Shown one piece after another: positions 47,730 through 51,742 of a DNA stretch of 64,000 nucleotides. The stretch spans positions 92,501 through 156,500 of the forward strand of contig NZ_CANMDB010000005.1 in assembly GCF_947496515.1 (NCBI RefSeq). The letters run 5' to 3'. Numbering within the stretch: the stretch's first letter is position 1; every line of letters begins with the position of its first letter. Under the pieces are notes generated by a model, which did not search any database, was not told where the DNA came from, and worked only from the letters and a program-made list of their open reading frames with translations. The position numbers and the translations under genes are program-made. This DNA comes from an uncultured Roseobacter sp. (GTDB lineage Bacteria > Pseudomonadota > Alphaproteobacteria > Rhodobacterales > Rhodobacteraceae).

Positions 47730-48629
47730 TCAGCGGCGGATCGCAAGCCGTGCGGCAAGCCAGCTGACCAGCATGAAGCCGAAATCCACCGGCAGCCATG
47801 CGCGCACCGCCGCTTCATCGCCGAGCGCAAAGGGGCTGTGGTAGAGCGCCAGCCCAGAGAGCTGGTCCGGCACAGAGATCAGGACGATGGCGGTGACATT
47901 GTTGGCAAAATGCACCGCGATGGCCGGTCCGATCGTGCCAGACCGCGCCGTCAGATCGGCCATCAGCAACCCGAAAACCGTGGCCCAGAGCGCAATGAGG
48001 CCTGCGTTGCTGCCGACCTCGGCGGGCATGTAGTGCCCCGCGCCAAAAAGCGCGGCAGGCACGATCATCCAGATCAGGGGCGAGCGGAACCGCGCGGCCA
48101 GTTGCTGCTGGATGTAGCCGCGAAAGAGCACTTCCTCGGTCGAGACCTGCACCAGAACCGCCAGCAACGAGAGCGGCAGCAGCAAGGCCCACAGACCCGG
48201 CGCGAGGTTCGGCTCCAACGGCGCGCCCATGCCCCAGGGCGGCAGCGCGAAAATCACCAGATTGACGACCACGAGGACGATCAGCACATCGCGGAACTGC
48301 GACACGCAGAGCGACAGGTCACCGAACACGCCGCCCAGCCCCCGGTGATGCGCCACCCGCAAGGCCACCGCAACGCCGACCACCATGAACCCGAAGCTGA
48401 ACAGCAAAAGATACATCGCCACCGGCGTGTCACCGCGCAGCAGAGCACCGGCCAGATCCGCCGCGCCATCGCCCTGCCAGCTCAGCAGCGTCTCGTAAAA
48501 CACCTGGTTGCACAGCAACGCCACACCCGCGACCAGAACAAGCCCGATGAGCAGGCGCCATATCTCCGCCTTCTCCCGGGCCGGGTCACTCAGGGCGCGG
48601 TGCGCCCGGTAGGCAGGTGGTGGCCACAT
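47730..48629 (-). CDS. CPBP-family intramembrane metalloprotease
   Basis: A 299-residue membrane protein with about eight helices and the CPBP (Abi/CaaX protease-like) motifs: STEEVLFRGYIQ near residue 165-176 (EExxxR), FGAGHYMP near 197 (FxxxH) and VHFANN near 242. Members cleave prenylated or other membrane peptides, or confer self-immunity to bacteriocins; no substrate is known here. It starts two bases after the stop of the large ABC/cNMP gene and may be translated with it. Confidence 0.88.
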   Translation of the reverse strand: MWPPPAYRAHRALSDPAREKAEIWRLLIGLVLVAGVALLCNQVFYETLLSWQGDGAADLAGALLRGDTPVAMYLLLFSFGFMVVGVAVALRVAHHRGLGGVFGDLSLCVSQFRDVLIVLVVVNLVIFALPPWGMGAPLEPNLAPGLWALLLPLSLLAVLVQVSTEEVLFRGYIQQQLAARFRSPLIWMIVPAALFGAGHYMPAEVGSNAGLIALWATVFGLLMADLTARSGTIGPAIAVHFANNVTAIVLISVPDQLSGLALYHSPFALGDEAAVRAWLPVDFGFMLVSWLAARLAIRR

Positions 48630-48631
48630 GG

Positions 48632-51600
48632 TCAGGACGCGCGCGCGCTGTCGGAGGGCTCGGGCGGCCCGTTTTCAACCGCTTCCTCGGGCACATCCAC
48701 CCGCGCCTCGCGCAGCAATTCGGCGGCGCCAGTCAAATGGCCCGCCACCGTACGCAGCAGGATCTGAAGCGCATTGAGATCGGTCTCGATCACGGAGCGG
48801 AATTCCTCCGCACCGATCCGCAGGAACTTGGTGTCCTCTTCGGCCACCAGATCAAGCTGCCGCGGCTCGTCGAGAATGACCGCCAGATCCCCGATCAGGC
48901 GCCCGGGCTCCACCGCGGTGATGTTGTGCCAGTGATTGTCATCGTCGAAATAGCCCATCATAGCGCGGCCCTTGAGACAGAGATACGCCGCATCGGGCCG
49001 GTCATGCTGGGCAAAGATGCGCGTGCCCTTCTTCGCAGTGTACCACTGCGCCGAGAATGCCAGCAGCCGCTGGGAACGCTGGTCCAGCTTCTCGAAAAGA
49101 TCGGTGCGCGAGATGGCCCGGATCTTGCGGCGCAGATCATCGGAACCGCTGTCGCCGGTATCAATGGTCTCCGGCTGCTCGTCGCCTTTGATTCGCCCGT
49201 TCTCGATCTCCACGAACATATCGTAGGCCTGCGGGTTCTCGAACTTGTCTTCCAGAAAAATCATCGTCGCCTTGGGCAAGAGATCCTGCAGCTTGGCCCG
49301 GGCGCGCTTGCGGCGTTCGGCATCGTGACTTTCCAGCACCGTATCCAGGATCAGCACGTCGGGCCGCTTGATGCCCGCGCGGCTGAAGGCGACGCGTTCC
49401 TGATAGATATCGGCGATATTCGCCCCGCCCAGTCCCAGCTTGTTGTCCATGATGGTCTCGGCCACGGCGCGTTTGAGCCCGTGTTTGGTGACGATATCCG
49501 CGACCAGATCCTCGATCACCTCCTTGCGCGCGCCCGCAAAAGCGGAGATCCGGCCATAAAGCGCATTCTCCAGCAAGGTCAGCCGCGGTAGATAGTTCTC
49601 GGGCGCGATCGGCACGAAAAGATCGCTCATCCGTTCGCGCATCTCCTTGCCCTTTTCGGCACGGATCTTGACGATCTCGGTCTTGAAGCTCTCGGGGAAC
49701 CCGGGCCCGATCTGCTCTGCCGTAAAGGCGAAGGGCACCGTCAGCAGCAACGTGAACTCCTCCTGCGTCAGGGCCTGATCGCCTTTTTCGCTGCGGCGCA
49801 GGGCAATATCCACGAGCCGCTCGTAAAGCTCCTCCTCAATCTCCAAGGCAGTAAAAAGAGGATGGTTTGTCCCGTCGCGGCCAAAGGTCTGGTTGAGTGT
49901 CTCTATCAGCGTCTGCGAGATGGCAATCGCCTGTTCGGTGACGCCAAGCTCGTTGATCAGGGCCACCAGCCCGCTGCCCGCCGCCAGCCCGCGCTGCGAG
50001 ATCTGGCGCTTGGGCGCGGCGAACATCAGGTTACCACCCAGCGGGATTGATGGATTGAAGGCCTCAGGGTCAAAGCGATTGACGTAGTCTTCCAGCTCCG
50101 CCTCCTTCAGCGCCTCGTAGACCTCGTCGCGCAGGGACACGATGGCATCGGCAAGCTGCATGTTGCCTTCCATATAGGTGCCAGAGCGCAACATCCCGCG
50201 GAACATCAACTCGTCCAGACCCATGGCTTCGACCAGCTGGAACCACCAGCCATTGATCTCTTCGACCGAATTCAGCCCGGCAAGTTCGGGATCCATCCAG
50301 TCCGCGGCGATACTGTCGGGGCTGTTGCCCGCCCGGCGTGCCTCCCAGTTCTTGCGGTCCTTGCGCGACGGATCCCACAGGACCGTCTTGGGGCTGGTCC
50401 GCAGCGGCATCAGCAGATTGTCCCGCAAGGTCCCTTCAAAGAGATGGGGCCGAGAATGGGCATACCCGATCCGCGCGGCAATCACCGCCTGATGCAACTC
50501 TGACAGATCATGACCCGCGATTGTCACGCTGCCGCGGGCGGCCAGCACCTCGCGGGTCAGTAATTCGGCCAAGGCAGTGCGCTCTGTCTGGCTGGTGGAC
50601 TGGACGGCCACCCGGGCACCTGCAGGGATCTCAAGATTGATATTCTCCAGAAGCGCGTTGCCATCGGCGTTGCGCACTGTGACATCCTTGATGGAGATCA
50701 CGCCGTCCAGACGTGGCACCGTCTCAGGCTCGCCTTCAAAAAGGCTCTCATCGATCATGCCCTTGGGCGCAAAACGCTCTGTCACGATCTCCCACCGCAA
50801 AGACATGTCCTGAACCTGATTGTAGTAGGTCAGCAGTTCCTTCCACGGCGAGCTGAGATCCTTGTAGGCCGCCAGTGCAGCCACCAGCGCGCCGACCGTG
50901 ATCTCCCCCTTGATCGCCAGATAGCCCCCGACCGCGTAAAAGAAAAACGGCGTCAGCTGGGTGATGAAGTTGTTGAGAAACTTCATGAAGAATTTCTTCT
51001 GGTAGATCTGGAAGCGGATGTCGAAGAGCCGCCCCAGCCGGTCCGTGAACACAGCCAGCCGGTACCGCAGCCCGCCGTTGGTGCGCAGATCGCCGATGCC
51101 TGCCGCGGTCTCGCCAATCTCGGAAGCGAAACCGCGCACCTCCACGATGCGTTTTTTGTTCAGCTGGTTGATCTGGCGCTGCAACATCGGGATGAGCCAC
51201 GCTTGTAGCGGAATGAGCGCGACGCCGGCCAGCCCGAACCAGACGCTCTGCATGAACAGAAAGATCACGATGATCAGCATCTGCCCTGCCTGAAATACCG
51301 GTTGTGCCACGGCATCGCCCATCAGACCACCCATGGGCTCGGCCTCCGAGGTCACCATGGAGACAAGCTCGCCCTGGCTGGTCTTGCGGAAGTAGGCACT
51401 GGGAAACCGGGTCATCCGGTTGATCAGCGTGTAGCGAAAGCGCCGCAGCATGCGTTCGGCCAACACACCTTTCATGGTGTTGAGCCGCATTTTCATCAGC
51501 CCGTGGACCAGGACCGCACCGAGATAGCCGAAACACAGCACCATCAGGAACTGTGTTTGCGTCATGGTTTGGCCGAACACGGTCACCGTGCTGGAGGCCG

Positions 51601-51742
51601 CGCCGATCGCATCGTTGATGATGCGCTTGGGCAGTTCCAGCGTGGCGTAGAGGAACGGGAAGGTGAACACCGTAAAGAACAGCAAGAACAGCTGATCCCG
51701 TTTGGAATGCTTCCAAATGAAGGCGAAGAGTGAGCGATCCAT
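48632..51742 (-). CDS. ABC-exporter-like protein with degenerate ATPase domain and cNMP-binding domain
   Basis: 1,036 residues. Residues 15-310 are an ABC exporter transmembrane domain (six helices; [21 protein letters not shown] near 115). From about 348 a nucleotide-binding domain begins ([14 protein letters not shown]), but the Walker A position reads [12 protein letters not shown] (380-391) without the lysine, the Walker B end reads [12 protein letters not shown] (795-806) without the glutamate, the signature reads LGGANIAD and the H-loop has no histidine. About 270 residues (450-715) are inserted. Residues 885-1005 form a cyclic-nucleotide-binding domain. Start MDRSLFAF at 51742; upstream in-frame ATGs are less likely. 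Divergent from ilvD. Confidence 0.85.

Follow-up and report, generated by a model that had tools for sequence, protein, structure and literature searches.

A single gene in a 64,000-nucleotide stretch of DNA from an uncultured Roseobacter sp. (the window; contig NZ_CANMDB010000005.1, positions 92,501 to 156,500) encodes a protein derived from an ATP-binding cassette (ABC) exporter. Its nucleotide-binding domain (NBD) has lost the ATPase motifs, contains a large insert and is followed by a domain of the cyclic nucleoside monophosphate (cNMP)-binding type. The reading we favour for this pseudo-ABC protein, with somewhat less than even confidence, is a ligand-regulated transporter or flippase that is not driven by ATP and that serves the product of a glycosyltransferase cluster. 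The basis of this reading is the conserved motif loss, duplication of a module inside the NBD, a distribution of fused and split cNMP domains that is consistent with a single event, the fact that protein and cluster occur together and are often neighbours, coupling-helix regions that have been kept and the existence of relatives that have no NBD. In the plasmid records listed such proteins are named just 'ABC transporter transmembrane domain-containing protein' or 'cyclic nucleotide-binding domain-containing protein', or similar.

The derivation from an ABC exporter, proposed earlier in a first-pass annotation, is supported by several comparisons. A Pfam scan of the 1036-residue protein matches ABC_membrane at residues 54-290 (67.7 bits), ABC_tran by its first half only (365-463, 30.3 bits) and cNMP_binding at 904-988 (46.5 bits against a cut-off of 27.5). 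Among the NCBIfam models MsbA scores highest (133.2 bits, with its best stretch at 39-443), though far under its cut-off of 602. The NHLM ABC1 model matches the N-terminal half (124.8 bits) and the PglK model the last part of the NBD (39.1 bits). The PDB matches listed for the protein are ABC proteins. An AlphaFold2 (AF2) model built from a 68-sequence alignment has a mean predicted local distance difference test score (pLDDT) of 80.6 and a predicted template modelling score (pTM) of 0.67, with confidence below 50 at residues 148-175, about 288-297, 854-865 and in the tail. Residues 1-854 of this model align with type IV exporters, which means that the exporter membrane domain fold is present, and residues 343-853 align with the ComA NBD (220 aligned, root-mean-square deviation 2.4), which means that the NBD fold is present as well. 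The fold matches include SUR2 and heterodimeric exporters. The order given earlier, an exporter-type membrane domain and then an NBD-like region, is thus confirmed, and the predicted fold does contain an NBD. As for the start, the reading frame is open from 51886 and the start at 51742 gives the 1036-residue product. A Met is aligned there in 68/68 sequences, partly by construction because the nearest Met within 12 residues had been picked.

What has happened to the ATPase site is clear when its motif positions are read against ordinary exporters in alignments. In place of the Walker A motif GxxGxGK[ST] the protein reads STSQTERT, with the Lys replaced by Arg388 and the Gly lost. The Q-loop Gln is replaced by Ser430 and the LSGGQ signature by IADIY (residues 776-780). 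Walker B retains Asp800, the catalytic Glu is replaced by Thr801, and the H-loop His is replaced by Asp832. All four of the replacements listed in the first-pass annotation (Walker A Lys, Walker B Glu, LSGGQ and H-loop His) are therefore real. Could they be errors in the sequence? A set of 87 sequences speaks to this. It consists of the window protein, the best 80 of 322 relatives found (54-83% identity; mostly from the Roseobacter group, plus Moritella and Granulosicoccaceae) and six further genome copies. The Walker A Lys, Q-loop Gln, catalytic Glu and H-loop His are each present in 0/87, and the Walker B Asp is retained in 52/87. Because the canonical residues are absent from the close relatives, the loss of the ATPase motifs is not a sequence error; the degenerate motifs are conserved as lost. 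This conserved loss suggests that the NBD of the window's branch no longer hydrolyses ATP, and the earlier phrase 'rather than a pump' holds in the sense that the protein would not be an ordinary ATP pump.

Loss of the motifs has not meant loss of the gene. Mean identity to the window protein among 67 relatives is 79.5% for the membrane domain, 63.3% for the first NBD part, 54.9% for the insert, 54.3% for the second NBD part and 57.3% for the cNMP domain, making the membrane domain the most conserved region. In all five regions the nonsynonymous rate (dN) is below the synonymous rate (dS) in every one of the 11 comparisons that yielded a dS value (for locus L019 two values are missing). To judge by its sequence, then, the gene is real and under selection.

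The long insert reported in the NBD is also there (see table), and its origin appears to lie within the NBD itself. The element that follows the Q-loop, at residues 434-446, recurs at about 558-575 and about 713-730. Of the two Q-loop-like stretches described before, the second, at about 720, stands, but the count does not: there are three. The last two copies read roughly FDxxxYNxxATLxENLLFG in relatives in which the cNMP domain is a separate gene (see below). Profile windows at 550 and 705 score 48.3 against a control maximum of 10.4 among 217,558 pairs touching the membrane domain. In hhalign comparisons, module 2 (520-675) matches module 3 (676-795) with a probability of 98.6 (98.4 in the split set) and an E value of 5.9e-16, and module 1 matches modules 2 and 3 at 71-92, with membrane-domain controls at 1 or less. 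In the NBD, then, module 1 supplies the canonical start and module 3 the canonical end, and the extra module material lies between the two. The insert is therefore best described as an internal duplication of the Q-loop/helical module, an interpretation that is new here. A phmmer search of residues 445-720 against PDB chains returned one match only (E 0.64), and module 2 folded alone gave no convincing structural match.

The next line of evidence comes from more distant relatives. A scan of 289 genomes of the class at E <= 1e-40 found a match in 96, and many of the matches run across one stop codon. The reason is that in 24 of the 40 loci that were read the cNMP domain has a gene of its own, of 147-181 codons, which follows the end of the NBD chain after a gap of -4 to 188 bases. 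A tree of 63 rows made by a quick method places the 24 fused rows on one side of a branch with support 99, amounting to a single change, so the distribution of fused and split forms fits one event. Decay of the NBD is milder in the split-gene relatives. Nineteen of the 24 fused rows, including the window, are set apart by a long branch (1.08); the Walker A Lys is found in 0/19 of these. Over all 63 rows the Walker A Lys is present in 26, the Q-loop Gln in 6, the Walker B Asp in 15, the Glu in 18, the His in 13 and GK[ST] in 3 (loci L168, L158 and L141). At L141 the site is nearly complete (GDGNSGKT, LSGAQ, LDEAT and the His). Since distant relatives (about 30-36% identity) retain more of the site, the decay is graded and lineage-specific. 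Homologues with an intact Walker A, which would have pointed to a sequencing or assembly problem, are thus absent at close range (0/87), although the same does not hold at a distance. The window copy is a paralogue that lies beside accD. Many genomes of the family have a second copy, and in the window's own genome just one full copy was seen, plus ordinary exporters.

The cNMP domain has changed too. The earlier claim of such a domain at 885-1005 was right about the domain and is corrected by Pfam as to its boundaries. The assignment rests on PF00027, on matches to the nearest solved chain (5d1i_A, 48.9 bits) and to PKA-type chains, and on strands predicted by AF2 at 899-977; the fold comparison barely probed this part. 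Were the phosphate-binding Arg and Glu of the cassette kept? The Arg was (Arg961, 87/87), and the Glu was not, being replaced by Asp952 in 84/87; R[ST]A reads RQL in the window protein. The separate-gene cNMP proteins have GE in 24/24 and R[ST]A in 23/24. Among 12 other fused proteins, five have the Asp like the window (L023, L044, L066, L081, L083) and seven retain the Glu, four of them (L152, L153, L162, L168) having both the Glu and R[ST]A. These intermediates, together with the canonical cassettes of the split relatives, indicate that the line leading to the window's branch saw changes in the ATP site as well as in the cNMP cassette. Perhaps the ligand of the domain in that branch is other than cAMP. 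For the same reasons the description of this protein as cAMP/cGMP-gated is not supported.

One clue to function is what lies opposite. A divergent cluster faces the gene, or the split pair, in many genomes of the class. Its members include a GT28-like protein (c4) and a second one of GT28/MurG-like type (c3), two GT4 enzymes (c1 and c6), a histidine phosphatase (c5), a peptide-importer ATPase (c2), a small protein (c13) and c7, which is weakly DUF2334-like. At E <= 1e-25, c4 is found in 94 of the 289 class genomes. Both pseudo-ABC and c4 are present in 91, pseudo-ABC only in 5, c4 only in 3 and neither in 190, and the two are no more than 2 kb apart in 63/90. In the window's family (198 genomes) the corresponding numbers are 39, 1, 10 (5 of them weak) and 148; put differently, c4 is in 39/40 genomes with pseudo-ABC and 10/158 of the others. 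The lone family genome with pseudo-ABC only, G623, owes its match to an NBD-less relative. Fisher tests give about 1e-64 for the class and about 9e-31 for the family, both values ignoring phylogeny. Linkage does not explain the co-occurrence in the family, because just 12/39 genomes have a copy on the same contig at a distance of 100 kb or less. In the window's own genome c4-c1-c6-c5-c3-c7 occur in that order at L195:8912-14935, away from the window gene. A cluster for which the libraries used give no specific family name is now tied to a protein of the membrane and to a signal domain of the cNMP type.

It is the membrane domain that connects the pseudo-ABC proteins with six relatives that have no NBD (L082, L207-L211). 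These are short open reading frames with 37-42% identity to the window's membrane domain, such as L207:5540-6781(-), of 413 residues, and L211:5056-6294(-), of 412. They are missing 4 residues in the region of coupling helix 1 (6/6) and 3-6 residues in region 2, whereas these regions (108-124 and 210-228) are ungapped in 63/63 members with a pseudo-NBD. Members that retain the pseudo-NBD thus also retain the coupling helices, and so motion is probably still passed between NBD and membrane domain, in one direction or the other. Family-specific charges (K39, K84, K294, D295 and E302) are common to both kinds, except that two of the NBD-less proteins have N or E at 295. With regard to the glutamate ladder of SLiPT transporters such as SbmA, the conserved Glu residues of the membrane domain are E96, E125, E133, E135 and E302. 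Cupredoxin and multicopper-oxidase-like stretches lie near five of the six NBD-less relatives (partial in L082 and L210), and none was found near the sixth, on a contig of 3186 bases; those in L082, L207 and L209-L211 are apparently a copper-related branch. Nature has thus provided a series on one conserved membrane domain, from a near-intact NBD through a dead NBD to no NBD, and this makes the conversion of an ABC pump into a secondary transporter or regulator directly testable. Separately, at L176:5048-11006 (own genome, C2) an ordinary ABC exporter stands in a row with an AMP-binding enzyme and with a protein that consists of a membrane domain only, distantly related to the window's (25% identity).

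How might the protein work? On the favoured reading the protein, a probable homodimer, would serve a single conserved glycosyltransferase pathway, and its most likely role there would be that of an inner-membrane flippase or exporter of the glycan or glycolipid. The dead NBD would stay mechanically attached to the membrane domain via intact coupling helices, and NBD, duplicated helical modules and cNMP-type domain would together form a regulatory lever. A cytoplasmic small ligand or partner would alter the NBD-like region, and the membrane domain would be opened or locked. The driving force might be a substrate gradient or the proton motive force, as in SbmA. A broader version of this idea, possible but doubtful, is a class of transporter between primary and secondary transport, its motor rebuilt by a triplicated Q-loop/helical module and a cNMP-type sensor into a ligand-controlled lever, its membrane domain powered by a non-ATP source and its NBD dropped in a sister branch.

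Known systems offer partial parallels. MsbA and PglK, flippases of lipid-linked glycans, are alike in profile match and glycan context, but the window protein has lost the ATPase motifs and gained the insert and the cNMP domain. NHLM-type peptide exporters also have a cNMP domain on an ABC exporter; they are taken to be ATP-driven and differ in domain order and context. Other PF00027 proteins, such as 5d1i_A, share the fold and the cassette Arg, yet the window's branch has Asp for Glu, has lost R[ST]A and is fused to the pseudo-ABC chain. CFTR and SUR (SUR2 being among the fold matches) are ABC exporters turned to gating or regulation; they retain nucleotide binding and are not known to have a cNMP domain. 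SbmA/BacA, a proton-driven SLiPT peptide transporter with the ABC cousin YddA, is alike in having an exporter-type membrane domain not run by ATP, a likeness by description rather than alignment. SLiPT transporters are proposed to have arisen from full ABC transporters by loss of NBDs and coupling helices, and to run on protons (PMC13316013). The end state outlined there is resembled by the NBD-less relatives, whereas the window protein retains the NBD fold and coupling helices and carries a cNMP domain. Set against that proposal, the pseudo-ABC family seems to have taken a parallel course, one in which intermediates survive.

Several observations weigh against an ATP-independent transporter of the cluster's product. 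The cNMP cassette is altered in the window protein itself, and the low AF2 confidence (<50) at 148-175 and about 288-297 falls in the membrane domain and covers the conserved K294 and D295. The glycan role rests on genomic association that is not corrected for phylogeny, a peptide-type importer adjoins several clusters (so other transporters are nearby), and a transporter and a regulator would give the same genomic pattern. What if no substrate crosses at all? The protein would then be a regulator or scaffold, a ligand sensor that organises or controls glycosyltransferases at the membrane. The ATPase loss, the sensor domain, the large insert and the co-occurrence with glycosyltransferase enzymes would all suit it, as would locus L203, where a stand-alone cNMP gene sits beside the cluster and the fused copy is on another contig. 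Nevertheless, we regard it as rather unlikely, because conservation is highest in the membrane domain (79.5%, with 54-63% elsewhere) and the conserved charges are largely common to the NBD-less relatives, which suggests a working permeation path.

Explanations that keep ATP in play fare less well. Heterodimeric exporters such as TM287/288, TmrAB and TAP are alike in fold and have degenerate motifs in one half, and the window protein could be such a half with an intact partner hydrolysing ATP. Its structural matches include these heterodimers and its genome has ordinary exporters. This is improbable, however: no half-exporter or intact partner gene was seen among the recurrent neighbours scanned (a distant partner lies beyond that scan), and every motif including the signature and H-loop is lost in one chain across close relatives, whereas ATP binding is usually retained in the degenerate halves that are known. 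The duplicated helical module is a further difference from these exporters. An exporter that is slow or binds ATP without hydrolysing it, with residues outside the classical motifs binding nucleotide, would fit relatives such as L141 and the 26 of 63 rows with the Walker A Lys, but we think it more improbable still for a branch that is without the Walker A glycines and Lys, the signature, the catalytic Glu and the His. Finally, the channel suggested at first pass, gated by cAMP or cGMP, has the cNMP fold in its favour and is very improbable, since the cassette has lost its Glu and R[ST]A, Pfam gives no channel family for the membrane part and the listed PDB matches are to ABC proteins.

The gene for a CPBP protease does start two bases downstream, as annotated at first pass, where it was suggested to be part of the same system. 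It is directly downstream in 61 of the loci of the best 80 of 322 relatives. Among the 40 loci read in class genomes it is downstream in 2, both of the window's own branch, and in the other paralogue clade in 0/16 loci. It is a lineage-specific neighbour, not a core component.

Table. Positions of the pseudo-ABC gene, its parts and its neighbour in the window
Feature	Position	Strand	Residues and remarks
Whole gene: ABC-exporter-derived protein with pseudo-NBD and cNMP domain	48632..51742	(-)	1036 amino acids
Membrane domain	50753..51742	(-)	1-330; PF00664 match 54-290
Walker A position, degenerate	50558..50617	(-)	376-395
Repeat 1: Q-loop position and following 13-residue element	50402..50473	(-)	424-447
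Insert: remainder of module 1, module 2, beginning of module 3	49622..50401	(-)	448-707
Repeat 2 core	50012..50095	(-)	550-577
Repeat 3 core, then canonical helical subdomain	49544..49630	(-)	705-733
Signature position	49394..49432	(-)	771-783
Walker B position	49340..49357	(-)	796-801, VLILDT
H-loop position	49247..49249	(-)	832
cNMP-binding domain	48779..49033	(-)	904-988, Pfam PF00027
Phosphate-binding cassette	48851-48904	(-)	947-964
CPBP (Rce1-like) protease gene	47730..48629	(-)	2 bases downstream of pseudo-ABC gene

Other genes were seen around the cluster and its pseudo-ABC partners. The stand-alone cNMP gene at L203:6311-6772(-), which adjoins a glycosyltransferase cluster, encodes a protein with 49% identity to the cNMP protein of L185; the genome concerned, G394, has its fused pseudo-ABC on another contig. 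Genes for large MscS-type mechanosensitive channels lie beside the cluster at L197:5918-8266(-) and next to a fused gene at L088:3667-5955(+). A small PF12692 methyltransferase-like gene, whose own gene group c9 was seen in 10/53 loci, is found by the cNMP gene or the cluster at L179:11653-12147(+) and L197:14824-15300(+). A cyclase gene cluster is near the pseudo-ABC gene in 4/53 loci, namely L162:11648-12988(-), L166:11796-12692(+), L177 and L180:16873-18213(+), and PF00211 was confirmed in L162, L166 and L180, the three that were scanned.
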